Positions 165 to 23,912 of a stretch of DNA of 35,109 bases are shown here, piece after piece. Location of the stretch: assembly GCA_015490675.1 (NCBI GenBank), contig WFXI01000236.1:1-35109 (forward strand). The letters run 5' to 3'. A program made the translations under genes and the position numbers. Below the pieces are notes generated by a model. That model was not told where the DNA came from, made no database searches, and saw only the letters and a list, made by a program, of their open reading frames with translations. The number at the start of each line of letters is the position of its first letter. Within the stretch, counting starts at the first letter, position 1. Source of the DNA: Hydrogenothermaceae bacterium. GTDB taxonomy: Bacteria; Aquificota; Aquificia; Aquificales; Hydrogenothermaceae.

Positions 165-476
165 ATGGAACACGAAAAAATTAGAATAAAATTAAAAGCT
201 TTTGACCATGATGTTTTAGACCAATCAGTAAAACAAATAATAGAAACTGTTAAAAGAAGTGGTGGGGTTATTAAAGGCCCTATCCCACTTCCTACTAAAA
301 GAAAAGTGTGGTGTGTATTAAGGTCTCCACACAAATTTGAACAATCAAGAGAACACTTTGAAATGAGAATTCACAAAAGATTAATAGATATTGAAAATGC
401 AACTCCACAAACTATAGAAGCATTAATGGACATCAACCTACCTGCTGGTGTTGATGTAGAAATCAAATTAAGTTAA
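165..476 (+). CDS. rpsJ: 30S ribosomal protein S10
   Basis: Protein [31 protein letters not shown]...[17 protein letters not shown]; operon position. Confidence 0.98.
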
Positions 477-493
477 GAAAAGGAGTGAGAGCA

Positions 494-1177: not shown

Positions 1178-1204
1178 GCAAATAGAAAAGAGGTGAAGTA
1201 GAAG

Positions 1205-1828
1205 ATGGAAGCAAATGTAGTTAACATAAAAAATGAGCAAGTTGGAACAATAAACTTAAAAGAAGAAATTTTTAACACTGAAGTTAAAGAGCATACTGTT
1301 TGGGAAGTTATTAGATGGCAATTGGCTGCTAGAAGAGCAGGAACTGCTTCTACTAAAACCAGAGCAGAGGTTAGAGGCTCTAGAAGAAAAATACTTCCTC
1401 AAAAAGGAACTGGTAATGCAAGACACGGAGATAGGAAAGCTAACTTAATGGTAGGTGGTGGTGTAGCACACGGGCCACATCCTAGAGATTACTACTATGC
1501 ATTACCTAAAAAAGTTAGAAAAAAGGCTTTAAAAGGAGTTCTTTCTGCAAAATTAAAAGACGGAGAAATAATATTTATTGAAGATTTTACTTTTGAAGCT
1601 CCAAAAACTAAAAATGCCGTTGAAGTTTTAAAGAATTTTGGACTAGATAAATCAAAAGTTTTACTTGTAATAGCAGAAAAAGATGAAAATGTAATCAAAT
1701 CATTTAGAAATATTCCTAAAGTTAAAGTTTTATTGGTAGATGGATTAAATACTTATGACATTCTGAATGCTGAAAAGGTTTTAATCACAAAATCAGCAGC
1801 AGAAAAAATTAATGAGAGGTTAGGATAA
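1205..1828 (+). CDS. rplD: 50S ribosomal protein L4
   Basis: L4 signature TKTRAEVRGSRRKILPQKGTGNARHGDRKANLMVGGGVAHGPHPRDY. Confidence 0.97.
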   Translation: MEANVVNIKNEQVGTINLKEEIFNTEVKEHTVWEVIRWQLAARRAGTASTKTRAEVRGSRRKILPQKGTGNARHGDRKANLMVGGGVAHGPHPRDYYYALPKKVRKKALKGVLSAKLKDGEIIFIEDFTFEAPKTKNAVEVLKNFGLDKSKVLLVIAEKDENVIKSFRNIPKVKVLLVDGLNTYDILNAEKVLITKSAAEKINERLG

Positions 1829-2121
1829 TGAAGACTCCACATGATATTCTAATTCGTCCTGTTCTAACGGAAAAGGCTGTAAACCAAAATGAAAAGGAAA
1901 ATAAACTAGTGTTTGAAGTGGCTTTAGACGCTAATAAGATAGAAATAAAAAAAGCTGTTGAAGAAGTATTTGGAGTTAAAGTTAAAGAAGTTAGAACTAT
2001 GATTGTTAAACCAAAAAGAAAAAGAGTTGGTTTCAACAAACCAGGATTTACAAAAAAATGGAAAAAAGCAATAGTAAAAGTTGAAAGTGAAAAACCAATA
2101 AATATTGCTGAATTAGTTTAA
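1828..2121 (+). CDS. rplW: 50S ribosomal protein L23
   Basis: MKTPHDILIRPVLTEKAV...; operon order. Confidence 0.97.
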   Translation: MKTPHDILIRPVLTEKAVNQNEKENKLVFEVALDANKIEIKKAVEEVFGVKVKEVRTMIVKPKRKRVGFNKPGFTKKWKKAIVKVESEKPINIAELV

Positions 2122-2134
2122 GAGGTGAAAGAAG

Positions 2135-2959
2135 ATGGGAGTTAGAAAATTAAAACCTGTAACAAACGGAACTAGACACGCAGTTTTATACGATTTTGCA
2201 GAAATTACTAAAACTGAGCCAGAAAAATCATTAGTTGAGCCTTTAAAGAAAAAGGCAGGAAGAAACAATCAAGGAAGAATTACTGTTAGACATAGAGGTG
2301 GTGGACATAAAAGACTTTATAGGATAATAGACTTTAAAAGGGATAAATGGGGTGTTCCAGCAAAAGTTGCAGCTATAGAATATGACCCTAACAGAAGTGC
2401 TAGAATAGCTCTTCTTCATTATCTTGATGGTGAAAAAAGATATATTATCTGGCCTGAAGGTTTACAAGTTGGGGATATGGTTGTAGCTGGACCTGATGCA
2501 GAAATAAAAACAGGAAACGCCTTGCCTCTAGAAAATATCCCTGTTGGTACATTTGTACATAATGTAGAACTTACTCCAGGAAAAGGTGGACAGCTTGCAA
2601 GAGCTGCTGGAATGTCTGCACAAATTCTTGGAAGACAGGGAGACTATGTTCAATTAAGACTTCCTTCTGGAGAAATTAGATTAGTTCATAAAAAATGTAT
2701 GGCTACTGTTGGTGTGGTTGGTCTTGCAGAACACGAACTTGTAAAACTTGGAAAAGCAGGAAGAAAAAGATGGCTTGGAATTAGACCAACTGTTAGAGGT
2801 ACTGCAATGAACCCTGTTGATCACCCTCACGGTGGTGGTGAAGGAAAAACATTTGGTAAACATCCAGTTTCTCCTTGGGGTCAACCTACAAAAGGATACA
2901 AAACTAGAAGAGGTGCTAAATACTCTGATAAATTCATAATTAAACGCAGAGGTAAATAA
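2135..2959 (+). CDS. rplB: 50S ribosomal protein L2
   Basis: [26 protein letters not shown]...[19 protein letters not shown]. Confidence 0.99.
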
Positions 2960-2961
2960 GG

Positions 2962-3261
2962 ATGGGATATAAAGGAAAGTGGAACGAAAGAAATAAAAAC
3001 CCATATGTAAATGAAAAGATTCTCAAAAAAATAAGAAAAATGAATGAAACTGGAGAAAGAAAAGTAATAAAAGTATGGGATAGAGCTTGCACAATTACTG
3101 AAGAAATGGTTGGGCATACAATTGCAGTATATAATGGAATGAAATTTATCCCTGTATACATCCAACCAGAAATGGTTGGACACAAACTTGGAGAGTTCTC
3201 TTTAACTAGAACTTTTAGAGGACACCCTGACAAATCAGGAAAAGCAGTTAAGAAAAAATAA
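2962..3261 (+). CDS. rpsS: 30S ribosomal protein S19
   Basis: [50 protein letters not shown]. Confidence 0.97.
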
Positions 3262-3274
3262 GAGGTGAAGACAG

Positions 3275-3628
3275 ATGGCTACTACAGTAAACAACAATGA
3301 AGCCAGAGCAGTTTTAAGATATGCAAGAATATCTCCTACAAAAGTAAGACAGGTTATCAATTTAATTAGAGGAAAAGATGTAGGAACTGCTTTAGCAATT
3401 TTAGGTGAATTAAACAAAAGAGCAGCAAGAATAGTAGAAAAACTATTAAAAAGTGCTATAGCTAATGCTGAAATGAAAGGAATGGATATTGATAACTTAT
3501 ATATAAAAGAAATAAAAGCTGACGATGGCCCTATTTTAAAAAGATATATGCCTAGAGCATATGGTAGGGCTACAATGATAAGAAGAAGATATTCTCATAT
3601 AACAATTAAATTAGCTGAAAGGCAGTAA
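3275..3628 (+). CDS. rplV: 50S ribosomal protein L22
   Basis: [26 protein letters not shown]...[21 protein letters not shown]. Confidence 0.97.
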
Positions 3629-3642
3629 AGGAGGAAATAACG

Positions 3643-4329
3643 GTGGGTCAGAAAGTTCATCCAATAGGTTTTAGATTAGGTATTACCTCTGACTGGCAAT
3701 CAAAATGGTATACAGATAAGAAAAACTATGCAAAAACTCTTCATGAAGATATAAAAATTAGAAATTTCATTAAAGAAAAATACAAAGCTGCTGGAATTTC
3801 AAAAGTATTTATAGAAAGACTTGGAGACAAACTTAGAATTAAAATACTCGCAGCAAAACCAGGAATTGTTATTGGAAGAAAAGGTTCAGAGGTAGAAGAA
3901 CTTAACAAAATAATACAGGCTTTAACAGATGCTAAGGAAATAACAGTTAATGTTGACGAAGTAAAAGTTCCAGAATTGGATGCTCAGCTTGTGGCTGAAG
4001 ACATAGCTTTACAACTTGAAAGAAGGGTTTCTCATAGAAGAGCAATGAAGAGAGCTATTGACAATGCAATGAGAGCAGGAGCTAAAGGAATAAAAACTCA
4101 GGTTGGTGGTCGTATCGGCGGAGTTGATCTTGCTAGAAAAGAATGGATTTTAGAAGGTAGAATGCCACTTCAAACTTTAAGAGCAGAAATAGATTACGGT
4201 TATGCAAGAGCTTCTACTAAGTATGGAATACTTGGAGTTAAGGTTTGGATTTACAAAGGTGATAAACTTGATGCTCAGAAAGAAGAAGTATTAAACAAAA
4301 TAGAAGAAGAATTAAAAGTAGAAAAGTAA
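3643..4329 (+). CDS. rpsC: 30S ribosomal protein S3 (GTG start)
   Basis: [23 protein letters not shown]...[13 protein letters not shown] start after SD AGGAGG. Confidence 0.98.
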
Positions 4330-4351
4330 AAAATAATAGGAGGATTACATA

Positions 4352-4771
4352 ATGTCTCTTCTACAACCTAAAAAGTTAAAATGGAGAAAACAGCAAAGAG
4401 GAAGAATGAAAGGTAAAGCTTCCCGTAGAAACAGGGTAGCTTTTGGAGAATATGGATTACAGGCTTTAGAACCTTGCTGGTTAACATCTAGACAAATTGA
4501 AGCTGCCCGTATTGCTATCGTTAGGGAAGCTAAAAAAGGTGCAAAAGTTTGGATTAGAGCTTTCCCTCACAAACCTGTTACTAGGAAACCTGCTGAAACT
4601 AGAATGGGTAAAGGAAAAGGTGATTTAGACCATTTTGTATCTGTTGTAAAACCAGGACATATCTTATTTGAACTTGCTGGTGTTCCTGAGGAAGTTGCTC
4701 AGGAAGCTTTCAGAAAAGCAGGTTATAAACTCCCTATTAAAACAAGACTTGTAAAAGCAGAAGGGGTGTAA
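4352..4771 (+). CDS. rplP: 50S ribosomal protein L16
   Basis: [25 protein letters not shown]...[24 protein letters not shown]. Confidence 0.98.
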
Positions 4772-4773
4772 GA

Positions 4774-4986
4774 ATGAAGGCAAAAGAATTAAGAAAATTA
4801 TCAAATGAAGAACTCCAAGAAAAATTAAAAGAATTAAAGCAAAAATTAATGAAATTAAGATTTCAAAACGAAATTGGAGGATTAGAAAAACCTTCAGAAA
4901 TCAAAGCTACAAAAAGAGATATAGCTAGAATTCTTACTATACTCAGAGAAAGAGAGCTAGAAGCTCAAAATGCGGAGGTTAAATAA
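4774..4986 (+). CDS. rpmC: 50S ribosomal protein L29
   Basis: [31 protein letters not shown]...[15 protein letters not shown]. Confidence 0.96.
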
Positions 4987-5237
4987 TGGCTGGAAGAAGG
5001 GAATTCGTAGGAAAGGTTGTTAGTGATAAAATGGACAAAACAGTTGTTGTTGCTGTAGAAAGACAGTTCTCTCACCCTCTATATGGGAAAAGGGTTAAAA
5101 GAACAAAAAAATACTATGCTCACGATCCTGAAAATAAATTAAAAGTTGGTGATGTAGTTAGAATAAGAGAAAGTAGACCTTTATCTAAATTAAAAAGATG
5201 GGTTGTTGTTGAAGTTTTATCTTCACAAAATCAGTAA
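4986..5237 (+). CDS. rpsQ: 30S ribosomal protein S17
   Basis: [45 protein letters not shown]. Confidence 0.97.
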
Positions 5238-5244
5238 TACTATA

Positions 5245-5273
5245 TTGATTTAATTTTCATAAAATTATAAAAT
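5245..5273 (+). promoter_or_regulatory. Candidate internal sigma-70-type promoter in rpsQ-rplN gap
   Basis: TTGATT (5245-5250), 17-nt spacer, TAAAAT (5268-5273), in an 83-bp gap inside an otherwise very compact operon. Confidence 0.45.
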
Positions 5274-5320
5274 ATTATTTTGTCCCTATTTTTTAAGAAT
5301 TTTACAAGGGGTGTAGTGTA

Positions 5321-5701
5321 ATGATACAAAGAGGAACTTATTTAAATGTTGCTGATAATTCAGGTGCTAAGAAAGTTCAATGTATAGGTATTCCAAAGAA
5401 AGCGAATTTTGGTGCTCAAAAGAATACAGCAACTTTAGGCGATGTAATAACAGTTACGGTAAAATCTGCTTTACCTACAGGAACTGCTAAAAAAGGAAAA
5501 GTTTACAAAGCAGTTGTAGTAAGAACTGCTAAAGAAGTTAAAAGACCAGATGGAAGCTATGTAAAAGCTGATGATAACGCAGTTGTTTTATTAAACAATA
5601 ACTTAGAACCAATAGGAACTCGTATTTTAGGACCTGTTGCAAGGGAAATTAGAGCAAAAGGATTTTACAGAATCGTTTCTTTAGCACCGGAGGTAATATA
5701 A
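5321..5701 (+). CDS. rplN: 50S ribosomal protein L14
   Basis: [24 protein letters not shown]...[19 protein letters not shown]. Confidence 0.98.
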
Positions 5702-6058
5702 ATGGTAAAAACTAGATTAAAAAGAGGCGATACAGTAGTAGTTATTGCTGGAAAAGAAAAAGGAAAAACTGGAAAAATAAAACAAATTATCAGAAAAAAC
5801 GGAAAAGTTAGAGTTATTGTTGAGGGTGTTAATATTGGGAAAAAACACCTCAAACATATAGAAGGTGTTCAAGAAGGTGGAATAGTAGAAATTGAAAGAC
5901 CTATTGATATATCAAATGTGGCATTTATAGACCCTAAAACAGGTAAACCTACTAAAATTGGATACAAGATTATAGAAGAAGGAAATGTTATTAAAAAAGT
6001 TAGATTTGCAAGAAAAAGTGGTGAAATTATAGACACAGTTTGGGAAAAAACTAAGTAG
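5702..6058 (+). CDS. rplX: 50S ribosomal protein L24
   Basis: [30 protein letters not shown] motif; order. Confidence 0.97.
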
Positions 6059-6070
6059 AGGTAATAAGAA

Positions 6071-6637
6071 ATGGCAGAAGCAACTACAAAATATATTCCA
6101 AGATTAAGAAAAAAATATGAAGAAGAAGTTGCACCAAAATTAATGGAAAGATTTGGATATAAATCTCCAATGCAAATACCTAGAATTAAGAAAATCGTTG
6201 TAAATATGGGTGTTGGAGAAGCAGTTCAAGATATTAAACAATTAGATAAAGCTGTTGAAGATTTAACTTTAATTACAGGACAAAGACCTGAAATTAGAAG
6301 AGCTAAAAAATCAGAAGCAGGATTTAAATTAAGAAAAGGATTACCTGTTGGTGCAAGGGTAACTTTAAGAAAAGAAAGAATGTGGGACTTTTTAGATAAA
6401 TTAATATCTGTTGCTCTTCCAAGGGTTAGAGACTTTAGAGGTCTAAACCCTAAATCCTTTGATGGAAGAGGAAATTATGCTTTTGGTGTAAAAGAACAAA
6501 TAATATTCCCTGAAATAGATTATGACAAAGTAGATAGAATTAGAGGAATGGATATTATTATTGAAACAACTGCAGAAACTGACGAAGAAGCAAAATACTT
6601 ATTAGCATTACTTGGACTTCCAATTAGAGCATCTTAA
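6071..6637 (+). CDS. rplE: 50S ribosomal protein L5
   Basis: [18 protein letters not shown]...[36 protein letters not shown]. Confidence 0.98.
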
Positions 6638-6652
6638 GGAGGAATTATACAA

Positions 6653-6841
6653 ATGGCAAGAAAAGCATTATGGGCTAAATCTTTTTTAAAGAAGCCTAAG
6701 TACTCAACAAGAAATCACTCTAGATGTCCAATTTGTGGAAGACCTAGAGGATTTTTAAGACAATTTAACATGTGTAGAATATGCTTTAGGGAAAGAGCTT
6801 TAAGAGGCGAAATTCCAGGCGTAAGAAAAGCTAGCTGGTAA
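6653..6841 (+). CDS. rpsN: 30S ribosomal protein S14, zinc-binding type Z
   Basis: 62 aa with [20 protein letters not shown] zinc ligands. Confidence 0.97.
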
Positions 6842-6852
6842 GGAGGAAAAAG

Positions 6853-7263
6853 ATGATAACAGACCCTATCGCAGACATGCTTGCAAGAATAAATAATGCA
6901 ATCAAAGCAAGAAAAAGCGAAGTTTACATCCCTAATTCAAAAATAAAAGAGCAAATTGCAAGAATTTTAAAAGAAGAAGGATACATAGAAGATTACATAG
7001 TTTCTGATGAAAATAAAAAAGGAACTCAAAATACTTTAATTTTAAAATTAAAATACTTAGGACCTAGGAACACAAAACCTGTAATCTCAGGATTACAAAG
7101 AGTTTCTAAACCTGGTCGTAGGAAATATGTTGGAGTAGATGAAATTCCTTATGTTAGAAAAGGTTTAGGAACTGCTATTTTATCAACTAATAAGGGAATT
7201 CTCACAGACGCTCAAGCTAGAAAAGAAAGAGTTGGTGGTGAAATTCTCTGCTATGTTTGGTAA
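6853..7263 (+). CDS. rpsH: 30S ribosomal protein S8
   Basis: [24 protein letters not shown]...[11 protein letters not shown]-type C-terminus. Confidence 0.97.
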
Positions 7264-7286
7264 ACACTTTTAAGGAGGCTAATTAA

Positions 7287-7832
7287 ATGTCAAGGATTGG
7301 TAAAAAACCAATAGAAATACCAAATGGTGTTGAAGTAAAAATAGAAGATGGAAATGTTGTTACTGTAAAAGGACCTAAGGGACAGTTAACACAAAAATTT
7401 AACCCTGAATTAAAAATAACAGTTGAAGATAATCAAATCAAAATAGAAAGACCAAATGATAGCTCTTTTATGAGGGCTATACATGGAACAACTAGAGCTT
7501 TAATTGCAAATATGGTTAAAGGAGTAACAGAAGGCTTTACTGTAGAACTTGAAATTATAGGTATTGGTTATAGAGCAGCTATGAAAGGAAAAGCTCTAGA
7601 AATGCAACTTGGTTACTCTCATCCTGTTGTTTATGAACCACCTGAAGGAATCACAATTTCTGTTGAAGGGAATACAAATATTAAAGTATCTGGAATTGAC
7701 AAACAACTTGTAGGTCAGGTTGCTGCTGAAATAAGAGATTTTAGAAAACCTGACCCTTACAAAGGAAAAGGAATTAGATACAAAGGTGAACAACTTAAAT
7801 TAAAACCTGGTAAAGCAGCTGGTAAAAAATAA
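7287..7832 (+). CDS. rplF: 50S ribosomal protein L6
   Basis: [19 protein letters not shown]...[16 protein letters not shown]. Confidence 0.98.
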
Positions 7833-7851
7833 AATTTAAGGTGAGGAAAAA

Positions 7852-8223
7852 ATGGCAGTAAAAACAAGAAGACAAAAAAGAATAATAAGACATAAAAGAA
7901 TTAGAAAAAAAGTTTTTGGAACAGCTGAAAGACCAAGAATGGCATTCTACAAAAGTTTAAATAACCTTTATGTTCAAATAATTGATGATGAAAAGGGACA
8001 TACTTTAGTTAGTGCTTCAACAATAGATAAGGATTTTGTTGAAAAGTATGGATTTAGAGGTGGTAAAAACAAAGAAGTAGCTAGAAAATTAGGTGAATTT
8101 ATTGCTGAGAAAGCTTTAGCAAAAGGAATTGAAAAGGTTGTTTTTGACAGAGGTGGTTTTATATACCACGGTAAAGTTAAAGAATTTGCTGAAGCAGCTA
8201 GAGAAAAAGGACTAAAGTTTTAA
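7852..8223 (+). CDS. rplR: 50S ribosomal protein L18
   Basis: [35 protein letters not shown]...[28 protein letters not shown]. Confidence 0.97.
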
Positions 8224-8234
8224 GGAGTAGGTGA

Positions 8235-8819
8235 ATGGGATACAAAAAAATTGAAAGAATCATTGAGGAAAGAATAAAGAAAAATCCAATTGACCCTAAT
8301 TCTTTAGAATTGCAAGAAAAAGTTATAGAAATCAGAAGAACTACCCGTGTTATGGAAGGTGGTAGAAGATTTTCATTCTCTACTTTAGCTGTAGTTGGAG
8401 ATAAAAATGGACATATTGGATTTGGACACGGAAAAGCTAGAGAAGTTCCTCCTTCTATAGCTAAGGCTATTGCCGACGCTAAAAAACACTTAATAAAAGT
8501 TCCTCTTATGGATGGAACTATTCCTCACGATGTTATTGGTGAATATGAATCTGCAGTAGTTCTCTTAAAGCCTGCAAGAAAAGGTACTGGGGTTGTTGCA
8601 GGTGGTCCATTAAGACCTGTCTTAGAATTGCTCGGAGTTACAGATATTCTCTCTAAGATTTTAGGAAGAACTACTAATCCAAATAATGTCGTTAGAGCTG
8701 CTTTTGATGCTTTACTAAAGATAAAATCTCCTGAGGAAGTTGCTAAAGAAAGAGGAATCGACGAAGCTAAAATTAGAGAGAACTACAGAATTTTCGCTGG
8801 AGGTGTTCCTATAAGATGA
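8235..8819 (+). CDS. rpsE: 30S ribosomal protein S5
   Basis: [38 protein letters not shown]. Confidence 0.98.
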
Positions 8820-8995
8820 AGCTAAAAGTTAAATTAGTTAGAGGATTGGCAGGCAAAAAGAAGTTCCAAAAAGACGCTATTCGTTCTTTAGGACTTAGAA
8901 AAATAAATGATGAAAGAATCTTAGAAGATAATCCTATGGTTAGAGGAAATATTGAAAAAGTTAAGCATCTTATTAAGGTGGAGGAAGTAGAATAA
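8816..8995 (+). CDS. rpmD: 50S ribosomal protein L30 (not in supplied ORF track)
   Basis: Manual translation: [63 protein letters not shown] overlap with rpsE stop, TAATG overlap with rplO start. Confidence 0.95.
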
Positions 8996-9447
8996 TGGGT
9001 TTCAAACTACATGAACTTAGACCAAATGAAGGTGCTACTCATAGAAAAAAAAGAGTAGGTAGAGGTATTGGTTCAGGTCACGGAAAAACTTCTACAAGAG
9101 GTCATAAAGGTCAAAAATCTAGAAGAGGATATGGAGAACTTCCAGCATTTTTCGAAGGTGGTCAAACTCCATTTATTATGAGAATTCCTAAAAGGGGATT
9201 TAAAAATCCTAATACTGTAGAATACGAGATTGTTAATATAAAAACATTAGAAGAAAAATTTGAAGCAAATGCAGAAGTAACACCTGAAGTTTTAAAAGAA
9301 AAAGGAATTATCCATTGCACTTCTGCTGTAAAAATTCTTGGAGATGGAGAGTTATCAAAACCTTTAACTGTTAAAGCGCATAAATTTTCAAAATCTGCAG
9401 AAGAAAAAATAAAAGCTGCTGGTGGCTCAGTAGAAGTTATTTCTTAA
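8995..9447 (+). CDS. rplO: 50S ribosomal protein L15
   Basis: [39 protein letters not shown]. Confidence 0.98.
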
Positions 9448-9466
9448 ATTTAAAGAGGGGATGTGA

Positions 9467-11379
<1,913 letters not shown>

Positions 11380-11391
11380 TTTTAGATTATT

Positions 11392-12150
11392 ATGATAGAT
11401 TTAAAGTCTAAAGAAGATATTGAGAAACTGAAAGTTGCGAATAGGATAGTTGCAGAAATATTGCAGATTATAAAGGAAGAAACTAAGCCAGGAATGACTG
11501 GCATAGATTTAGATGAAATTGCAAGAAGGGAAGCTGAAAAAAGAGGCGTAAAACCTGCATTTTTAGGTTTATACGGTTTCCCGGCTGCTTTATGTGTGTC
11601 TATAAATGAAGAAATTGTTCACGGTGTTCCAAAGGATAAACCAATAAAAGAAGGTGATATTGTTAGCATAGATTTTGGTGTTGTTTATGAAGGTTGGTAT
11701 GGCGATGCAGCCATATCGTATGTTGTAGGTAATAAAATAAGTGATAGAAAAAAAAGACTTTTAGAAGGCGTAGAAAAAGCGTTATATGCTGGAATAGATA
11801 AATGTTATCCCGGAAATACTGTTCGGGACATCGCGGCTGCTATTGAAGGCACATTGAAGGAGTATAGACTTGCTCCTATTTGTGATTATGGGGGACATGG
11901 AATAGGTAGAAAACCCCATGAAGACCCCCATGTATCAAATTGTGTTGCTAATGCAGAAAATGTAAAGCTGAAAGCTGGTATGGTTTTAGCTATTGAACCT
12001 ATGGCAACACTTGGTAAAAGGGCTAATTATTACAGAAAGCTCAAAGATGGTTGGACAGTTGTTTCTAAAGAAAAAGCAATTGCTGCACATTTTGAGCATT
12101 CTGTAGCTATTACAGAAGATGGCCCTATTATTTTGTCAAAACTTGATTAA
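11392..12150 (+). CDS. map: Type I methionine aminopeptidase
   Basis: INEEIVHGVPKDKPIKEGDIVSIDFGVVYEGWYGDAA...GHGIGRKPHEDP. Confidence 0.96.
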   Translation: MIDLKSKEDIEKLKVANRIVAEILQIIKEETKPGMTGIDLDEIARREAEKRGVKPAFLGLYGFPAALCVSINEEIVHGVPKDKPIKEGDIVSIDFGVVYEGWYGDAAISYVVGNKISDRKKRLLEGVEKALYAGIDKCYPGNTVRDIAAAIEGTLKEYRLAPICDYGGHGIGRKPHEDPHVSNCVANAENVKLKAGMVLAIEPMATLGKRANYYRKLKDGWTVVSKEKAIAAHFEHSVAITEDGPIILSKLD

Positions 12151-12162
12151 AAAGGGAAGGAT

Positions 12163-12399
12163 ATGGGAAAAAAGAAAAAGGAAGATAAAAAGGAAAAAGG
12201 GATAGTAGTAGAAGGAACTGTAGAAGAAGCTCTTCCTAATGCTATGTTTAGGGTAAAACTTGATACTGGGCATGAAGTTTTAGCTCATGTATCTGGGAAG
12301 ATGAGGATGCACTTTATTCGTATTTTACCAGGAGATAGGGTTAGAGTTGAACTTTCTCCTTATGACCTTACAAGAGGTCGTATTATTTTTAGATTGTAA
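12163..12399 (+). CDS. infA: Translation initiation factor IF-1 (Lys-rich N-terminal extension)
   Basis: [62 protein letters not shown]. Confidence 0.97.
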
Positions 12400-12422
12400 A
12401 AAACTTTTGAGAGGTGTGAAAA

Positions 12423-12536
12423 ATGAAAGTAAGGTCTTCTGTTAAAAAAAGATGTGAAAAATGCAGAATCATAAAAAGAAATGGCAGAGTAATGGTTATT
12501 TGCGAAAATCCAAAACATAAACAAAAACAAGGGTAA
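12423..12536 (+). CDS. rpmJ: 50S ribosomal protein L36, zinc-type (not in supplied ORF track)
   Basis: Manual translation: [37 protein letters not shown]; CxxC...C...H zinc ligands. Confidence 0.97.
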
Positions 12537-12548
12537 TAGGAGGAGATA

Positions 12549-12911
12549 ATGGCTCGTATAGCAGGTGTAGATTTACCAGATAGAAAAAGACTTGAAATAG
12601 CTCTTACATACATATATGGAATCGGAAAAACTAGGGCTAAAGAAATACTTCAAAATACTGGAATTGATGGGATGAAAAGAGTTGGAGAATTAACTCCTGA
12701 TGAGTTAAATGCAATAAGAAAATATATAGAACAAAACTACAAAGTTGAAGGTGATTTAAGAAGGGAAGTTGCTGTTAATATAAAAAGACTTATGGATATG
12801 GGATGTTATAGAGGAATTAGACATAGACTTGGTCTTCCTGTTAGAGGACAAAGAACTAAAACAAATGCAAAAACCAGAAGAAAATTCTCTGGAAGAATTA
12901 AAAGAAGATAA
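12549..12911 (+). CDS. rpsM: 30S ribosomal protein S13
   Basis: [34 protein letters not shown]...[12 protein letters not shown]. Confidence 0.98.
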
Positions 12912-12926
12912 TTGGAGGCTACATAA

Positions 12927-13319
12927 ATGGCTAAGAAAAGAAAAAGAAGTACTAAAAAGGTTAAAAGAACAGTTCCTTACGGAATTGCTCATATTCAAGC
13001 AACATTTAATAATACTATTGTAACTATTACAGATAAAGAAGGTAATGTTTTAACCTGGGCATCTGGAGGAACTGAAGGATTTAAAGGAACTAGAAAATCT
13101 ACTCCTTATGCAGCACAAAAAGCTGCAGAAAAAGCTGCTAAAAAAGCTATGGAAGAATTTGGGATGACTGATGTTGAAGTATGGGTAAAAGGCCCAGGAG
13201 CAGGAAGAGAAACTGCTATTAAAACAATTCAGGCTACTGGTTTAAATGTTAGAGTTATAAAAGATGTAACTCCAATACCTCATAATGGATGTCGTCCACC
13301 AGCTAAAAGGAGGGTGTAA
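12927..13319 (+). CDS. rpsK: 30S ribosomal protein S11
   Basis: [28 protein letters not shown]...[16 protein letters not shown]. Confidence 0.98.
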
Positions 13320-13322
13320 TAG

Positions 13323-13952
13323 ATGGGAAGATATATTGGTCCTTGGACAAAAATTAGTAGAAGACTTGGTGCTTTTGTAGGTGGAAGTTTAAAATCTTTC
13401 CAAAAAAGAAACTTTCCACCAGGACAACATGGAAGAACCCAAGGTAGAAGAAGAAAACTTTCTGACTATGCAATTCGTCTTCAAGAAAAACAAAAATTAA
13501 GATATTTATACGGTGGGATAAGAGAGAAGCAGTTCAAAAGATATTTTGACGAAGCAGCTAGAATTGCAGGGGTTAGAGGCGGAAACACTGGTAATATTCT
13601 CCTCCAGCTCTTAGAAAGAAGACTTGATAATGTTGTTTATAGAATGGGATTTGCTAAAACTAGATTACAGGCTAGACAACTTGTTAGACACGGCCATTTC
13701 CTCGTAAATGGTAAAAAAGTTAATATACCTTCTTACCAAGTAGACCCTGGAGATATTATTGAGCTTAGAGAAAAAAGCAAAAAATCTCCACTATTCAAAG
13801 AAAACTTAGAGCAAAGAGACCCAAGGTCTATTCCTTCTTGGCTTGAAGTTGATAGAGAAAACTTTAGAGGAAAAGTATTAGAGATACCTGAAGAAATTGA
13901 ACTTGAAATTCCTGTTAATGTTCAGCTCATTATTGAGTACTACTCTGCGTAA
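13323..13952 (+). CDS. rpsD: 30S ribosomal protein S4
   Basis: KRNFPPGQHG...LSDYAIRLQEKQKLRYLYGGIREKQF...S4 domain; no zinc Cys. Confidence 0.97.
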   Translation: MGRYIGPWTKISRRLGAFVGGSLKSFQKRNFPPGQHGRTQGRRRKLSDYAIRLQEKQKLRYLYGGIREKQFKRYFDEAARIAGVRGGNTGNILLQLLERRLDNVVYRMGFAKTRLQARQLVRHGHFLVNGKKVNIPSYQVDPGDIIELREKSKKSPLFKENLEQRDPRSIPSWLEVDRENFRGKVLEIPEEIELEIPVNVQLIIEYYSA

Positions 13953-13973
13953 ATTATTGGAGGTAAAACGCCT

Positions 13974-14954
13974 ATGCCATTTTTAGAGTTTATAACTCCC
14001 GATAAAATTTATTGGGATGAAATTTCAAAAACAGATACTTATGGAAAACTTTATGTTGAACCTCTAGAAAGAGGTTGGGGAACTACTGTAGGTAATGCTC
14101 TAAGAAGAGTCTTACTTTCTTCTTTAGAAAGTGGAGCTATTACTGCAGTAAAAATACAAGGCGTTGCACACGAGTTTGCTACTATAGAAGGCGTTATTGA
14201 AGATGTAGCAGAAATAATTCTTAACTTAAAAGAAATTAAGTTCAAAATGGAAGAAGGAATAGACAGTGAATTTGCTATACTCGAAGTAAAAGGTCCAGGA
14301 AAAGTAACCGCTAAAGACATAAAACTGCCAAATGGCATAGAAGTTGTTAATCCTGATGTTCATATAGCTACTATTGATAGTCCTGACACTGAATTAAAAA
14401 TGGAAATCAAAATAGAAAAAGGTAGGGGATATGTAACTGTAGAGGAAATGGAAGCTCCTACTGAAATAGGATGGATACTAATAGATACTGCTTTTTCTCC
14501 AATTACTAAATGTACTTTCCATGTAGAACCAACAAGAGTTGGAGATAAAACTGACTATGATAAATTAATCTTAGAAATACATACAGATGGAAGTATTACT
14601 CCTGATGAAGCTTTAACAAAAGCTTCTAACTTGCTTATTAAACACTTTGAACTTTTACTAAATCCAACTGTAAAAAGGGTTGAAACTGTTAAAAAGGCAG
14701 TTCCTGAAAGTATAGCTCAAAGAATTGAAGAAGATAAGTTATCTTTAGCAATTGATGAGCTTGATATTTCTTCTAGAGCTACAAATACTCTTAAAAAACT
14801 TGGAATTCAAACAATTGGTGATTTAGTTAAAATGACAGAAGAAGATTTAAAAGAAGCTAAATCTATTGGTAGAAAAGCTTTAAAAGAGATAAAAGAAGCA
14901 TTAGCAGACTTAGGATTAGAGCTTGCTCCTTCAAAACCTGCAGAAAAACAATAA
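13974..14954 (+). CDS. rpoA: DNA-directed RNA polymerase subunit alpha
   Basis: EPLERGWGTTVGNALRRVLLSSLESGAITAVKI...IQTIGDLVKMTEEDL alpha-CTD. Confidence 0.98.
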   Translation: MPFLEFITPDKIYWDEISKTDTYGKLYVEPLERGWGTTVGNALRRVLLSSLESGAITAVKIQGVAHEFATIEGVIEDVAEIILNLKEIKFKMEEGIDSEFAILEVKGPGKVTAKDIKLPNGIEVVNPDVHIATIDSPDTELKMEIKIEKGRGYVTVEEMEAPTEIGWILIDTAFSPITKCTFHVEPTRVGDKTDYDKLILEIHTDGSITPDEALTKASNLLIKHFELLLNPTVKRVETVKKAVPESIAQRIEEDKLSLAIDELDISSRATNTLKKLGIQTIGDLVKMTEEDLKEAKSIGRKALKEIKEALADLGLELAPSKPAEKQ

Positions 14955-14969
14955 AAGAGGTGAAGATAG

Positions 14970-15344
14970 ATGCGTCATAGAGTAAAAACAAAAAGTTTTC
15001 ATAGACCTAAAGAACAAAGAGAGCATTTATTTGTTAATTTAGCGTGTGCATTGATTGAAAATGGTAGAATACAAACAACAGAAGCAAAAGCTAAAGCTTT
15101 AAGACCTTTCATTGAAAAGTTAATAACTCTTGCTAAAAAACAAACAGTTCATTCAAGAAGATTAATTAATTCTAGATTAAAACATCACAAATCTGCTGCA
15201 GACAAGTTATTTAAAGAACTTGCTCCACTTTATCAAGATAGAAACGGTGGATATACTAGAATATACAAATTAGATAAAAAAAGAAGAGGAGACGACGCAG
15301 AACTAGCTATTATAGAGCTAGTTGATTATCCTTTTGAGGACTAA
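14970..15344 (+). CDS. rplQ: 50S ribosomal protein L17
   Basis: MRHRVKTKSFHRPKEQREHLFVNLACALIENGRIQTTEAKAKALRPFIEKLITLAK. Confidence 0.97.
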   Translation: MRHRVKTKSFHRPKEQREHLFVNLACALIENGRIQTTEAKAKALRPFIEKLITLAKKQTVHSRRLINSRLKHHKSAADKLFKELAPLYQDRNGGYTRIYKLDKKRRGDDAELAIIELVDYPFED

Positions 15345-18368: not shown

Positions 18369-18742
18369 TGGAAAATTTAGTATTTGTTTATGGAACTTTA
18401 AAAAAGGGATACAGCAATCATCATTTATTGAAAAATGGCAAATTTCTAGGTGAAGCCAAAACCAAGTATAAATATGCTCTATATGAAAAGGTTTATCCTT
18501 ATGTATCACATAATCCTAAGGTATCAAACATTCATGGAGAAGTTTATCAGGTTGACAATTTTACTTTGAGAAAACTTGATATTTTGGAAGGGCATCCTTA
18601 TGAGTATAAAAGGGAATTAATTCCTGTTATTTTGAATAATAAAGAATTAAAAGCATGGATGTATTTTAATGATAAATATAAAGGTGGGAAATTAATACCT
18701 CAAGGAATTTATAAAAAACAAACGCCCCGTAAAAGGGGCTAA
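18368..18742 (+). CDS. Gamma-glutamylcyclotransferase / AIG2-like family protein
   Basis: VFVYGTLKKGYSNHHLL...GEVYQVDNFTLRKLDILEGHPYEYKRELIPV. Confidence 0.88.
   Translation: MENLVFVYGTLKKGYSNHHLLKNGKFLGEAKTKYKYALYEKVYPYVSHNPKVSNIHGEVYQVDNFTLRKLDILEGHPYEYKRELIPVILNNKELKAWMYFNDKYKGGKLIPQGIYKKQTPRKRG
18724..18739. terminator. Hairpin GCCCC-gtaaaa-GGGGC between convergent genes, probable terminator
   Basis: 5-bp GC stem; T-rich on the minus strand just beyond (GTTTGTTTTTT) and T-rich further downstream on the plus strand (TTATTTTTCTTTT). Confidence 0.6.
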
Positions 18743-18747
18743 AAACC

Positions 18748-19632
18748 TTATTTTTCTTTTGTAGTTGTAGATTTTCTTTGCATTTCTTTAACTTTTTTCT
18801 CTAGACTTTCAAATAAAACTTTTTTAGCAGTTTCTTTTTCAACTTTTTCTTCCAATTTATCAATTTCTTCTATAAGAGGTTTAATCTCTTTTTCTGTTTT
18901 TATATATCCAAGAGCTTGAGCAAGCCTAATTTTTCTTTTTGCTTCTTCTAATAGCTGTTTTGCAGAAATTGGATTGTTTTCAAATCTCTTTTTTGCATCT
19001 TCAATTAACATAATAGCTTCTGCTAAAGGTTTAGGAATAATAACCTCTTCTATTTCAATAGAACCTATTGCCACATTTAAGGCATTTAAAGCGTTTTCTA
19101 TGTCTTTTTTCCCAAGTAATTGCTCTGCAAGTTCTATAGCTTTTGTATACACTTCAAGTGGGAGGTAACTTGTTTGAATTTGAATTTCGTTTCTTAGAGC
19201 CTCAAGTAAATCTCTGGCTGCTGGAATATCATTTTTCTCACAGGCTTTTTTTGCTTGTTGTAAAAGCTTTTTAGCAAGCTTTATATCATCAACTCCTTCT
19301 ATTTGAGCTATTACAACACTGATTGGAAGCCTATCTAATTTGTCTTTGTACTGTTTCTGGAGTTTTTGAAGCTTATTTTTTATTTCTTCAATTTTTTGCT
19401 TAGCTTCTCTGGTCTTTCCGTGAGCTAAGAGAAACACTACTTGCTGAGTATCTTGATATGCTCTTAAAGCTTCTTGAATAACCTTTGCAATTTCTTGTTC
19501 TTGAATAGATTTTGTAGACCTTTCTCCTGCAGATTGCATTAACTCTTTTGTAGCTTTATCTGGAGTACTTGATGCAAGTGCAGATGTTGCAATTATTGCA
19601 GATACTAATAAAGAAACTCCTTTTTTAATCAT
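18748..19632 (-). CDS. YfdX-family protein with N-terminal signal peptide
   Basis: MIKKGVSLLVSAIIATSALAS signal peptide; DRLPISVVIAQIEGVDDIKLAKKLLQQAKKAC...EVYTKAIELAEQLL resembles YfdX family. Confidence 0.75.
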   Translation of the reverse strand: MIKKGVSLLVSAIIATSALASSTPDKATKELMQSAGERSTKSIQEQEIAKVIQEALRAYQDTQQVVFLLAHGKTREAKQKIEEIKNKLQKLQKQYKDKLDRLPISVVIAQIEGVDDIKLAKKLLQQAKKACEKNDIPAARDLLEALRNEIQIQTSYLPLEVYTKAIELAEQLLGKKDIENALNALNVAIGSIEIEEVIIPKPLAEAIMLIEDAKKRFENNPISAKQLLEEAKRKIRLAQALGYIKTEKEIKPLIEEIDKLEEKVEKETAKKVLFESLEKKVKEMQRKSTTTKEK

Positions 19633-19798
19633 TTTTTCCCTCCTTTTCTTCTAGTTCTTTTAACATTTCTTTTATTTTTTGTATAGCTTCTTCTTTTGAT
19701 ACTTCAACCATTATAGTTCCAGTGTTATAAAAAAAACGCCTCCCTTCAGGGAGACTTTTAACATATTCTAAAGTTTTTTCTAATGTTTTTTTATCCAT
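19625..19798 (-). CDS. 57-aa protein resembling the C-terminal half of prefoldin beta (not in supplied ORF track)
   Basis: Manual minus-strand translation: MDKKTLEKTLEYVKSLPEGRRFFYNTGTIMVEVSKEEAIQKIKEMLKELEEKEGKND*; fits snugly between the prefoldin alpha gene (ends 19811) and yfdX-like gene (starts 19632), 8-nt overlap with the latter. Confidence 0.7.
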   Translation of the reverse strand: MDKKTLEKTLEYVKSLPEGRRFFYNTGTIMVEVSKEEAIQKIKEMLKELEEKEGKND

Positions 19799-19810
19799 AG
19801 CTTTTTAACC

Positions 19811-20254
19811 TTACTTAGATTTTTTACCTTCTTCCTGACCTAATTCTTTAGTTCTTTGTAAAAGTTCTTCAGTTTTCTTATATGCTTCTGCAATAGCTTC
19901 CTCTAAACTTTGTCTTAAAGCCTCTAAAGCAGCAATTTGTGAAGCTATTTGTGTTAAAGCTTCATCATGTTTTAGTTCCGCAGATATGCCAGAACCTATT
20001 GAAATTATTACTTTTTCTGGGTCCTCAATTTTAGCTTCTATAGAAGCTATTGAACCTACAGGAATAATAATGTTTTTACCTTTACCCAGGTTTTTTAATG
20101 TTGCTAAAGTTTTAATAATATTTCTATACTCTGTGATTGTTTCATTAATCACAGTAATCTCAGCTCTTAAAGCTTCAATCTGAGCAATGTAACCTTTAAG
20201 CTCTTTGTTTAGGTCTTCCATTGTAGTGACCTTTTTTTCTTTTTTTTCTGCCAT
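19811..20254 (-). CDS. Prefoldin alpha subunit-like chaperone (archaeal type)
   Basis: Long coiled coils flanking a beta-rich core: GKNIIIPVGSIASIEAKIEDPEKVIISIGSGISAELKHDEALTQIASQIAALEALRQSLEEAI; matches the pattern of PfdA/GimC alpha. Confidence 0.8.
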   Translation of the reverse strand: MAEKKEKKVTTMEDLNKELKGYIAQIEALRAEITVINETITEYRNIIKTLATLKNLGKGKNIIIPVGSIASIEAKIEDPEKVIISIGSGISAELKHDEALTQIASQIAALEALRQSLEEAIAEAYKKTEELLQRTKELGQEEGKKSK

Positions 20255-20275
20255 GGCAGTTTACCTCCTTTATTT

Positions 20276-21001
20276 TTATAAAGTTTTTTTCAATTCTGAC
20301 CAACCTGTTGTTTGCTTTTCTCTAGGTAAATAAAGGATGTATCTTGGTCTAATGTCTATATGGTGTTCTTTTAAGAATTTTTCTCTAATTTCTTTTATTC
20401 TCCAGAAATATAAAAGAGTCCCCTTATAGTGATTTTCTGTCCAAAGACCTATCCTAAGTGGAATCTCCCAGTTTTTCATTTCTGAAATTAATGGTGCATA
20501 AAAATTTTCTGCAAGAGGATGGTCTTTTAGCATAGACTTTTCCATATGGGCAAGACCCTCGGCATATGAATGAGCTATAGCTTTTAATTTTTCTATGTCT
20601 TCTACCTCTATTTCCACTTCTAAAGTATCTTGATAGATTTCTGTTTTAAATCCTTTTACATCTATCCAGTCTTTTAAATCAAAAACTTCAATATATTCTT
20701 CTTTTATTTTTTCTGGATTTAGATAAATTTTTTCCTGAATTTTAAGACTTTTGAAAACTGGATACTTATCAAAGACAATTTTCCTTATTTCTTTTACTAC
20801 TTCTTTAGGATTTAAATTTTTATCTAGTAAATACTTTTTTACCTTATTTTCTATTTCTTTATCTTTTTTGATATAGTAATAAATACCTGCTGATTTTAAA
20901 GCTCCTTCAATTACATTTGAAGGAATAAAAGGTCTCCCTTCTTCATCTCTAGGGAAACCTTTTCTGTCAAAAACAAAAGGTGTCCAGTTTAAAAGATACA
21001 T
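20276..21001 (-). CDS. Diverged RAMP-superfamily protein, Csm5-like
   Basis: N-terminal TPFVFDRKGFPRDEEGRPFIPSNVIEGALKSA (cf. TP.hiG..lp.d..g..yIPGSSlKGAlR), later IPLRIGLWTENHYKGT and C-terminal RPRYILYLPREKQTTGWSELKK (cf. PkTR...GWvkL of Csm5). Confidence 0.6.
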   Translation of the reverse strand: MYLLNWTPFVFDRKGFPRDEEGRPFIPSNVIEGALKSAGIYYYIKKDKEIENKVKKYLLDKNLNPKEVVKEIRKIVFDKYPVFKSLKIQEKIYLNPEKIKEEYIEVFDLKDWIDVKGFKTEIYQDTLEVEIEVEDIEKLKAIAHSYAEGLAHMEKSMLKDHPLAENFYAPLISEMKNWEIPLRIGLWTENHYKGTLLYFWRIKEIREKFLKEHHIDIRPRYILYLPREKQTTGWSELKKTL

Positions 21002-21016
21002 ACTAATCCTCCCCCC

Positions 21017-21709
21017 TTACTTAAATGCTGCCAGTAATTTGTCTGCTTTTTCTGCAATGTTAATGTCAAATAGTGCTATTGTTGGAAGTAACCAAGAAAC
21101 TCTAAATCTTGCATCCCCATCTTTGTTTTCTCCCCAGTAAGATAAAGCAACCCTTCCAAATCCTGCGTCTTCTTCTACATCTTTCGCCCCTCTTAAAAAT
21201 CTTCTAGCAACATTTGGAAGTTGTTCATAAGGTACTGGCTTTCCCTCTTGTCCCCTTTGTTTTACTAACTCTGTAGCAGTTCCTACATTTCTAACAGCCT
21301 CTATTAAGTGATGTAACTTGTGTTTTTTGAAGTAAGTTAATAAAATGGCTCCTGCAGGTACTCTTAGAATTTCTATATTACTATCTCCCTCCCTTAATTC
21401 TCCAATTAAATACGCTTTCCCTTCAAACATTTCAATATGAGCAAAAATTTTTTTGTTTTTGGGAAGTTCATGGATTATTTCTTCTACTTCATATTTAATT
21501 TCTTCTTCTTCGTATTTATCCCCCACATTCCTTTTACCTGTCTCTGCCGTAAAGAAAGTAGCTTCTCCATCTTTTTTTCCAAATAAAAGGTCAAACCCCC
21601 ATCTTTTCAAAGCTTTGAGTTTAAATTCTCTTTCTTTTTCAGGTTGCCCTAATGTTTCAAAAACAAGTGTGTTAATAGCCTGTAATTCTCTAAGTTGAAA
21701 TAAATCCAA
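21017..21709 (-). CDS. Hypothetical protein (230 aa), first gene of RAMP/prefoldin cluster (TTG start)
   Basis: TTG at 21709 with upstream SD GGAGGG; stop 15 nt from next gene; contains [14 protein letters not shown] and [27 protein letters not shown]; family not recognised. Confidence 0.75.
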
Positions 21710-21757
21710 TTTTTCCCTCCATTTTATTAAATTTTATAAAAGTTATTATATATTTAT

Positions 21758-21785
21758 AATTTATTTCTAATAATATTTTTGTCAA
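21758..21785 (-). promoter_or_regulatory. Candidate promoter for RAMP/prefoldin cluster
   Basis: Minus strand TTGACA (21785-21780), 16-nt spacer, TAAATT (21763-21758), about 50 nt upstream of the TTG start. Confidence 0.5.
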
Positions 21786-21790
21786 GTAAT

Positions 21791-21809
21791 TTTAGTAATA
21801 TATACTAAA
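21791..21809. promoter_or_regulatory. Operator-like perfect palindrome TTTAGTA-ATATA-TACTAAA
   Basis: 7-bp perfect arms, 5-nt centre, immediately upstream of the TTGACA element. Confidence 0.4.
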
Positions 21810-21821
21810 TTTGTATTTGCA

Positions 21822-21881: not shown

Positions 21882-23912
21882 CTATTTTTGAAGTTTAGAA
21901 TTTAAGTAAAAATCTAGGAGGGTTTTAAATACTGCTACAAGTTGTTTTTCCTCTAACCCTGGGCCTGAAAGTTTTAGGTTATAAAAATCCTCACCTTCTA
22001 AAGAGTTTCCTCCATCTTTTGTTCCAAAAGCTTTATCAAATAAATCTCTACCATAAACAAACTGTTGTGTTAAAACAACCTGTAGATATCTTCCATCAAG
22101 GCCATAAGCTCTATCTTTAGAAGGCATAAAAAGAGATTGCTTTATAGCATTGTTGTTATCTAGATATCCTATCAGATTTTTGTTAGTAAGAATGTTAGTA
22201 GAAGATGTTATTTTTAGATATTCTTTAGCTATATTAAAATCCAAGTTCCCATTTGAGCTAATACATTGATTATTCGTAGAATCATAAGTAACATATCCTA
22301 GTATTCTACAAATACCCTCATTGTTACTTCTAAAATGGTCTATTCCATTTGTCATTGTAAAGTAGAGTTGATATTCTCCATAATCTTTAGGGTCATACTG
22401 CCCTGCTATTAGTCCTAAGTATCCTGAGGCATTCCCATCTTCAATCTGGTTTAGCTTATCAGCCCAGTATTTAATATCATATACATCACTATTGTATCCA
22501 TAATTTGTATCTTTCCAACCTGCAGATTTTGGTAATTTTCTCCAGTAAGAAAATGTGTTATCAACTGTTCCACTTATAGCTCCGTGGCAAGCTATACAGA
22601 ATGCCATTTCTTCTTCTGTTTGAGGTCTTAAATTACCGTTTTTATCCTCTATCCATCCTCCCATTAACCAGGTATCAGGGTCATTTGGCATTAAACCATT
22701 ATCGTAAGGTTTATATGCCAATTCTTCACCTTCTTCTCCTTCCTCAGGAGGATTACTTAAATCTTGCATAGCAATTTTTTTCATATATCTAAATTCTTTT
22801 AATTGTCCTGTTTTTCCTGCAAGTTGTGGATTGTTTTGCCAATCAGGGTCTATATAATAAACAGGATGAGCAAATTCTGTTCCTACAGGATAAAGCCCAA
22901 CTTTTTCGAAGCCTTTATATTGCCATACCTGTATATTAGAAGCATCTCCTACATAATAATCTGGAACCTGTAAAAATTTAATCCCATCTGCTAAAACCTG
23001 ATATTTAATTCTATATTTATCTAATATTTGTGTATTTAGTGTCTCTACTTCGCAGTTATCTGTTACTTGTTTAATGGTACATTCTAAAATAGCAAGGTTA
23101 ACTTTGTATATGTCTTTATTATAGATACCGTTTTCTTTTCTAAATTTTTCAGGAAGTCTTATCATTGCTGAATCAAGTCTTCCATTTGTAGGGAAAAATC
23201 CTGGAAAATGTTTCCAGTCATAGGCTCTCCACCAAGTATTTGTAGTATTATCATGAGTTGTTTCTGAAGTGTAAATAAACCCTTCATTATCTATGTAGTT
23301 TGTTTTTACAAAGGAAGTTCCATTCCATTTATAAAGTGGTGGCATATCTAATTTATATTTTCCAAGACCAATAGGATTATCACTTCCAAGATATAGACCT
23401 TGATTATATGCACTTTCCCAGTTGTTTTTCCTAATCCAATTATCAATAGAAACTATTTTGTTATCTTTGTTATCTTTAACCTGTTTATTTACTAAATCTA
23501 ATTCTGTCCATTTTTTACCATTTGCTAAAATTTTCTCTATTGTTTTTTCTGGTGATACAGCATTTAACCAGGGATTATCATTTGCAGGAAACCTGAGCCA
23601 GTTAATCTGGTTCTCCCAGTCTCCAGCATTATCTACAGGTGTATTTCCTGCATTATGACAAACATAACAAGGATTAGCAAATGCTTCTCCTGTTTTTGCT
23701 TTTCCTGTATCCGTATAACACTCTAATGGTATATATGCTGTTGGATTTTTATATTTTGTAAACCAAGGAAAACCTGCTATCAATCTTGGTGATAAATCTT
23801 TATCTGCATCATATTCACCTACAGGGTCAGATACATCAACTCCTCCAATGTTACAACCTGTAATAAATAACGGTAAAACTAATAAAGCTGACAAACTTTT
23901 TTTAATTGTCAT
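21882..23912 (-). CDS. Diheme c-type cytochrome-like lipoprotein (676 aa)
   Basis: Lipoprotein signal MTIKKSLSALLVLPLFITGC; two CxxCH motifs (CYVCH, CIACH). Confidence 0.8.
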   Translation of the reverse strand: MTIKKSLSALLVLPLFITGCNIGGVDVSDPVGEYDADKDLSPRLIAGFPWFTKYKNPTAYIPLECYTDTGKAKTGEAFANPCYVCHNAGNTPVDNAGDWENQINWLRFPANDNPWLNAVSPEKTIEKILANGKKWTELDLVNKQVKDNKDNKIVSIDNWIRKNNWESAYNQGLYLGSDNPIGLGKYKLDMPPLYKWNGTSFVKTNYIDNEGFIYTSETTHDNTTNTWWRAYDWKHFPGFFPTNGRLDSAMIRLPEKFRKENGIYNKDIYKVNLAILECTIKQVTDNCEVETLNTQILDKYRIKYQVLADGIKFLQVPDYYVGDASNIQVWQYKGFEKVGLYPVGTEFAHPVYYIDPDWQNNPQLAGKTGQLKEFRYMKKIAMQDLSNPPEEGEEGEELAYKPYDNGLMPNDPDTWLMGGWIEDKNGNLRPQTEEEMAFCIACHGAISGTVDNTFSYWRKLPKSAGWKDTNYGYNSDVYDIKYWADKLNQIEDGNASGYLGLIAGQYDPKDYGEYQLYFTMTNGIDHFRSNNEGICRILGYVTYDSTNNQCISSNGNLDFNIAKEYLKITSSTNILTNKNLIGYLDNNNAIKQSLFMPSKDRAYGLDGRYLQVVLTQQFVYGRDLFDKAFGTKDGGNSLEGEDFYNLKLSGPGLEEKQLVAVFKTLLDFYLNSKLQK

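Follow-up and report, generated by a model that had tools for sequence, protein, structure and literature searches.

A candidate CRISPR-independent cassette of UPF0128, a Csm5-derived RAMP protein, prefoldin and YfdX in Hydrogenothermaceae and other Aquificota

The window, that is, the whole stretch of DNA that was analyzed, covers 35,109 nt of a Hydrogenothermaceae bacterium (assembly GCA_015490675.1, contig WFXI01000236.1, positions 1 to 35,109 of the forward strand). An earlier note on this DNA had placed five open reading frames on the minus strand at 18748-21709, and all five were found there. In the order of reading they encode a 230 aa UPF0128/TIGR00703 protein (21017..21709), a 241 aa orphan RAMP protein of the Csm5 type (20276..21001), a 147 aa prefoldin subunit alpha (19811..20254), a 57 aa mini prefoldin beta (19625..19798) and a 294 aa member of the YfdX family that seems to carry a signal peptide (18748..19632; Pfam YfdX, E = 2.7e-21). 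Their tight spacing, also described in the note, holds: going from UPF0128 to YfdX, the first four genes are separated by 15, 21 and 12 nt, and the last two overlap by 8 nt. The UPF0128 start codon is TTG, and relatives use the same codon as ATG, GTG or TTG.

A candidate promoter region lies upstream of UPF0128 on the minus strand (21730..21790, with TTGACA at 21785), and a terminator-like hairpin on the same strand, GCCCC-N6-GGGGC followed by T-rich DNA (18724..18739), sits on the boundary of the cassette. Both signals are present as had been proposed, yet neither is commoner than chance (10 promoter-like sites vs 12 expected; 3 terminator-like sites vs 2.4 expected). A single transcript is better backed by the conserved gene order and by the empty site in related genomes than by these signals. 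Another hairpin, inside the mini prefoldin gene (19738-19755), was rejected as a terminator and treated as a coding by-product; in related genes it comes with the conserved LPEGRR motif, and the T run is mostly missing. A search for structured RNA in the window gave no Rfam match. Upstream in the window, a plus-strand ribosomal protein operon of the S10/spc/alpha type with secY, adk, map, infA and rpoA (165-15344) ends ~3 kb before the cassette.

The extent of the cassette (18722..21821) is given by two genomes of the same genus in which the site is empty. In one of these (locus L244) the positions matching 18722 and 21821 are only 19 nt apart, and in the other (L246) the same block is missing together with a neighbouring cyclotransferase gene. 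Next to the cassette, at 21882-23912, lies a 676-aa lipoprotein-like ORF with CxxCH motifs and no Pfam match, possibly a multihaem cytochrome; this gene is missing with the cassette at both empty sites and is found elsewhere in genome G002.

From its single sequence the second gene product gives weak matches (Pfam, 0.23; PADLOC Csm5, 5e-4), and its assignment as an orphan Csm5-like RAMP becomes firm through structure and profiles. The AlphaFold model, built from 37 relatives, has a mean pLDDT of 94.9. When this model was compared to the PDB in Foldseek, the first 21 places were all taken by Csm5 chains, with a lowest E of 8e-8 and a highest TMq of 0.62, so that the structure search, which the earlier note had named as a test that could refute it, returned the RAMP fold. 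Comparison of the orphan RAMP family with 23 Csm5 proteins of Aquificota in hhalign gives an alignment of 245 columns with a probability of 98.3. It begins at Csm5 column 89, about 88 N-terminal Csm5 columns being missing from the orphan family. At other loci in Aquificota, the orphan RAMP profile matches long genes of genuine Csm5 (4e-7 to 3e-4), which NCBIfam confirms as Csm5. Reciprocally, TIGR01899 matches orphan RAMPs below its cut-off, with the best score among the relatives in genome G061 (27.5 of 38.3 bits, E 1e-6); for the RAMP of the window itself NCBIfam lists no TIGR01899 match at E up to 1, short of the equivalog cut-off. Structure and hhalign together thus define a RAMP/RRM-derived fold of the Csm5 type.

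With Csm5, the type III-A effector subunit, the protein shares this fold, the profile alignment from about column 89, and conserved positions of the RxG, GW and helix Glu kind. Unlike Csm5, it lacks the N-terminal part (241 aa vs 344-466 aa), is encoded outside any CRISPR locus, is paired with UPF0128 and has lost the motif PG[ST]xIKGAIR, which is found in 19/23 Csm5 and in 0/37 orphan RAMPs. Judging by RAMP structures, this motif probably contacts the crRNA. The orphan family has no invariant His and has nearly invariant blocks of its own (KKDxxxE, WT, LLFFW and DIRP). Since fold and profiles match Csm5 while the motif is lost and other blocks are conserved, the second gene is a descendant of Csm5 and not Csm5. 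Genome G016 (L088 7332-9873) offers a natural near-deletion: only 65 aa of the RAMP are left there, next to UPF0128, both prefoldin genes (alpha and mini beta) and YfdX.

As the note had stated, the locus has no CRISPR context. Cas10, other Csm genes and a repeat array are all absent nearby, the other four genes show no convincing match to cas families, the flanking genes are ribosomal or housekeeping genes, and no array-like repeat was found between positions 16 and 26 kb of the window. One possible option is that the protein still serves type III-A CRISPR as an accessory, for example by providing an alternative cap or by inhibiting the Csm backbone, and its Csm5 homology and the genuine Csm5 found in 20 of the 48 genomes that carry the orphan RAMP would fit such a role. 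However, the other 28 carriers, among them near-complete genomes such as G018, have no Csm5 above the cut-off, and across 136 Aquificota genomes the orphan RAMP and genuine type III-A Csm5 occur independently (p = 0.35). Dependence on type III CRISPR is rejected by this statistic, and as cas genes are also absent from the identified neighbourhoods and the conserved Csm5 motif is gone, we regard an accessory role as very improbable.

The first gene, called unknown in the earlier note, belongs to a named family. The window protein is a full-length member of UPF0128/TIGR00703 at about 1e-97 (Pfam 7.7e-97; NCBIfam 9.9e-98; 326 bits vs a cut-off of 155.4), and it is also the closest partner of the RAMP. 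The family is known only as uncharacterised, and it is found in Methanocaldococcus jannaschii as well. Its AlphaFold model has a pLDDT of 95.0 and gave no convincing match among PDB and viral folds. UPF0128 as a second RAMP was considered and rejected, on that fold search and on a negative profile comparison with the RAMP family (probability 0.5). In several genomes of genus g12 there are two UPF0128 paralogues (L099, L100 and L111), the second ~40% identical and on a very long tree branch. In the open-access papers that were searched we found no relevant work on UPF0128, on its pairing with the RAMP, on prefoldin with RAMP proteins or on prefoldin in Aquifex.

For the third and fourth genes, family matches confirm the assignments as prefoldin alpha (TIGR00293, 3e-27; 95.3 bits vs a curated cut-off of 53.9) and as a mini prefoldin beta (Prefoldin_2, 7e-7, over profile positions 26-77 of 106). 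The mini beta is not a full-length, two-armed subunit: at 57 aa it reaches 22.5 of the 73 bits of gimC_beta, and it keeps the hairpin region with both coiled-coil arms shortened. The length of beta is 49-71 aa in the family of the window and in Desulfurobacteriaceae, and 90-99 aa in genera g12 and g18. Canonical prefoldin hands its clients to group II chaperonins. No thermosome model scores above its cut-off in any of the 136 Aquificota genomes, and the weak matches look like GroEL, so that no group II partner was found in these genomes. The prefoldin thus resembles archaeal prefoldin (GimC, alpha2beta4) in its normal-length alpha and in its beta hairpin, and differs from it in the bacterial host, the absence of an archaeal-type chaperonin, the beta of ~50-70 aa in the family of the window and the tie of its genes to RAMP and UPF0128. 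Based on this absence and on the loss of the Csm5 motif, the locus encodes neither a CRISPR effector nor a canonical prefoldin-thermosome pathway.

The distribution of these genes over the 136 Aquificota genomes was compared by Fisher tests, which are uncorrected for phylogeny. RAMP is carried by 48 genomes, UPF0128 by 46 and prefoldin alpha by 47. RAMP and UPF0128 occur together in 44 genomes, singly in 4 and 2, and are both missing in 86 (p = 1.7e-28, phylogeny uncorrected); for RAMP and prefoldin the counts are 46, 2, 1 and 87 (p about 1e-32, likewise uncorrected). The almost complete coincidence of all three gives p values of 1.7e-28, 1.2e-32 and 2.2e-32, with the same limit. Among the exceptions, G109, G112 and G128 involve fragments or incomplete assemblies, the RAMP is broken or shortened in G048 and G016, and in G038 an intact RAMP stands by itself.

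Could such a pattern come from shared ancestry and habitat, with lateral transfer among vent bacteria and no functional link? The uncorrected tests leave room for this explanation, as does the reduced certainty of the carriers outside Aquificota, which are metagenome-assembled. Several observations speak against it. Near-complete genomes within the genera g1, g7 and g18 differ, with RAMP, UPF0128 and prefoldin switching on and off together, and with such concordance in at least three genera, common descent by itself accounts poorly for the pattern. Genus g12 has all the genes, mostly at separate places, so that linkage alone does not explain their joint presence either. The tight, overlapping order recurs in unrelated phyla, the same genes are found rearranged in an operon of g18, and prefoldin alpha above the cut-off is restricted, among Aquificota, to genomes that carry the cassette or a remnant of it. 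Of the explanations discussed here we find this one the hardest to credit. The evidence that these genes form one system is strong, and it is their function that has to be inferred.

The check that the earlier note had asked for, whether the genes are kept together in related genomes, was passed: the cluster recurs far beyond chance, with its order either unchanged or rearranged, in a large number of genomes. In the family of the window and in Desulfurobacteriaceae-type loci the order is UPF0128, RAMP, prefoldin alpha and mini prefoldin beta, followed by YfdX and/or two membrane proteins; YfdX is missing from some clusters, for example in Desulfurobacteriaceae. By hydropathy, the two membrane proteins have one N-terminal transmembrane helix (c6) and three or four helices (c7). 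c6 is present in 35 of the 48 RAMP genomes vs 6 of the 88 others (p = 1e-15) and is absent from the genome of the window. Neither c6 nor c7 (L094, L118 and other Persephonella-type loci) has a Pfam match; in several phyla both show a strong linkage to the module, and they may represent new families. DUF1931, a histone-fold family, and UPF0114 are often beside the cassette, UPF0114 in Persephonella-type clusters. The g18 operon, again tight and overlapping, runs prefoldin alpha, c6, c7, UPF0128, RAMP, prefoldin beta and DUF505. This last gene (~650 aa; Pfam E 9e-254 in L210) ends the operon after prefoldin beta (L210 5157-7127; L211 8051-10012). In G001 a fasciclin-domain gene stands between RAMP and prefoldin alpha (L082 9582-10076).

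Outside Aquificota, one scan of GTDB for UPF0128 gave 59 loci, all bacterial and all metagenome-assembled, many of them presumably from vent metagenomes. They belong to WOR-3, Bacteroidota/Chlorobiota/Kapaibacteria, Campylobacterota, Thermodesulfobacteriota, Myxococcota-type Deltaproteobacteria and Methylothermaceae. In most loci RAMP is directly downstream of UPF0128, 35 of 36 pairs being spaced by -4 to 50 nt, and the distances of the two families correlate (r 0.59, Mantel p 0.0005). No RAMP was found in the Deltaproteobacterial and Methylothermaceae genomes with UPF0128. Binning errors are possible in such metagenome-assembled carriers; the pair stands in unrelated chromosomal contexts, each repeated among several genomes, which speaks against such errors for Campylobacterota and Bacteroidota. 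In several Campylobacterota genomes (L163, L165, L166, L171 and L172) the pair is flanked by a DEAD-box helicase region on one side and by an inositol monophosphatase/HtrA/response regulator region on the other. Prefoldin alpha above the cut-off was found in only 1 of the 25 searched pair-carrying genomes outside Aquificota, a WOR-3 carrier. Because the pair is adjacent across phyla and mostly without prefoldin, the core is UPF0128-RAMP and prefoldin is an addition.

The earlier note had suggested that a reduced prefoldin chaperones the assembly of an RNA- or protein-binding RAMP, which is partly supported. The association of the genes stands. A need for prefoldin is not supported, since Campylobacterota and Bacteroidota/Chlorobiota genomes carry the pair and no prefoldin, and RNA binding finds no support, since the basic PG[ST]xIKGAIR of Csm5 is absent. 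A wider form of this idea is the main rival to our reading: RAMP and UPF0128 would still bind RNA in a CRISPR-independent particle that binds RNA or protects it (in heat, for example, mRNA or tRNA), and prefoldin would help to assemble or recycle this particle. The RAMP fold is that of an RNA-binding superfamily, and the family has six almost invariant basic residues (K45, K46, R183, K203, R206 and R218); the conservation of K45/K46, R183, K203 and R206 leaves nucleic-acid binding possible. Against it are the loss of the motif in all 37 relatives, the lack of an invariant His and the same prefoldin-free carriers. Taken together, we judge an RNA particle to be rather unlikely.

Another hypothesis is that the genes serve anti-phage defence, as an uncharacterised island whose sensor derives from Csm5. 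The patchy distribution, the presence or absence as a block and the spread across phyla would suit such an island, and RAMPs are otherwise immune proteins. Yet the other genes have no convincing PADLOC match, the cassette encodes nothing recognisable as an effector such as a nuclease, TIR or HEPN protein, several partners are chaperone-like, and nothing was found in the phage, plasmid and viral contig collections. This role, like that of a CRISPR accessory, is less likely than RNA binding, and we consider it improbable. A viral or plasmid origin was rejected on the same searches, with 0 UPF0128 relatives in phages, plasmids and viral contigs and 0 RAMP relatives in viral contigs.

A stress role is suggested by the fifth gene and some of its companions. 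YfdX is found near the module in Aquificota, WOR-3 and Kapaibacteria, and near UPF0128 in Deltaproteobacteria, where a DUF308 (HdeD-type) protein stands beside the two. YfdX is reported to have chaperone-like activity (PMC4941729), and YfdX with HdeD makes up a cell-envelope-stress module on which heat resistance from the tLST island depends (PMC8290217). This recurrence, together with the role of YfdX in that island, is why a proteostasis or envelope-stress reading is favoured; UPF0114 in the Persephonella-type clusters also counts in its favour. It draws on a subset of the loci, as YfdX is absent from some clusters, and the Campylobacterota and Bacteroidota pairs have no prefoldin and, Kapaibacteria apart, no YfdX alongside. 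With the tLST stress island the cassette shares YfdX, in some relatives the DUF308/HdeD-type membrane protein, lateral spread and chaperone-like members. It differs in that none of ClpK/ClpG, small Hsp20, FtsH, DegP and KefB was identified in the cassette, which instead has UPF0128, RAMP and prefoldin; the tLST core hsp20-clpG/ClpK is thus not among the identified cassette genes.

A possible mechanism that fits these data is as follows. The adjacent and often translationally coupled UPF0128 and Csm5-derived RAMP would most probably form one cytosolic complex, in which crRNA-type binding has presumably been lost and which may act as a repurposed scaffold or sensor. In Aquificota this core would be joined by a dedicated prefoldin with a cut-down beta and by secreted or membrane proteins including YfdX, and in many relatives by the two membrane proteins, UPF0114 and the histone-fold protein. 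Prefoldin would hold unfolded protein in the cytosol and YfdX in the periplasm, and the module may protect the cell under thermal or envelope stress. As a whole, this reading of a CRISPR-independent, laterally mobile cassette for stress protection is offered tentatively, with a likelihood that we place a little short of even. Its evolutionary part is probable: a CRISPR effector subunit was domesticated as an obligate partner of UPF0128, and an archaeal-type prefoldin, once a co-chaperone of the thermosome, was captured, shortened and made a dedicated part of this complex. The component families are known, and we could find no known kind of system that the core pair with its tie to prefoldin matches.

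To our knowledge, proteins of the Csm5 family have so far been met in CRISPR effectors alone. If one of their descendants has become fixed in a cassette free of CRISPR, this would be a clear case of exaptation. Such a cassette would address why some bacteria keep prefoldin without its archaeal chaperonin, and which partners the uncharacterised UPF0128 family has. As it is acquired and lost as a unit in bacteria of hydrothermal vents, it points to a cell system that has not been described before and that may protect against stress.
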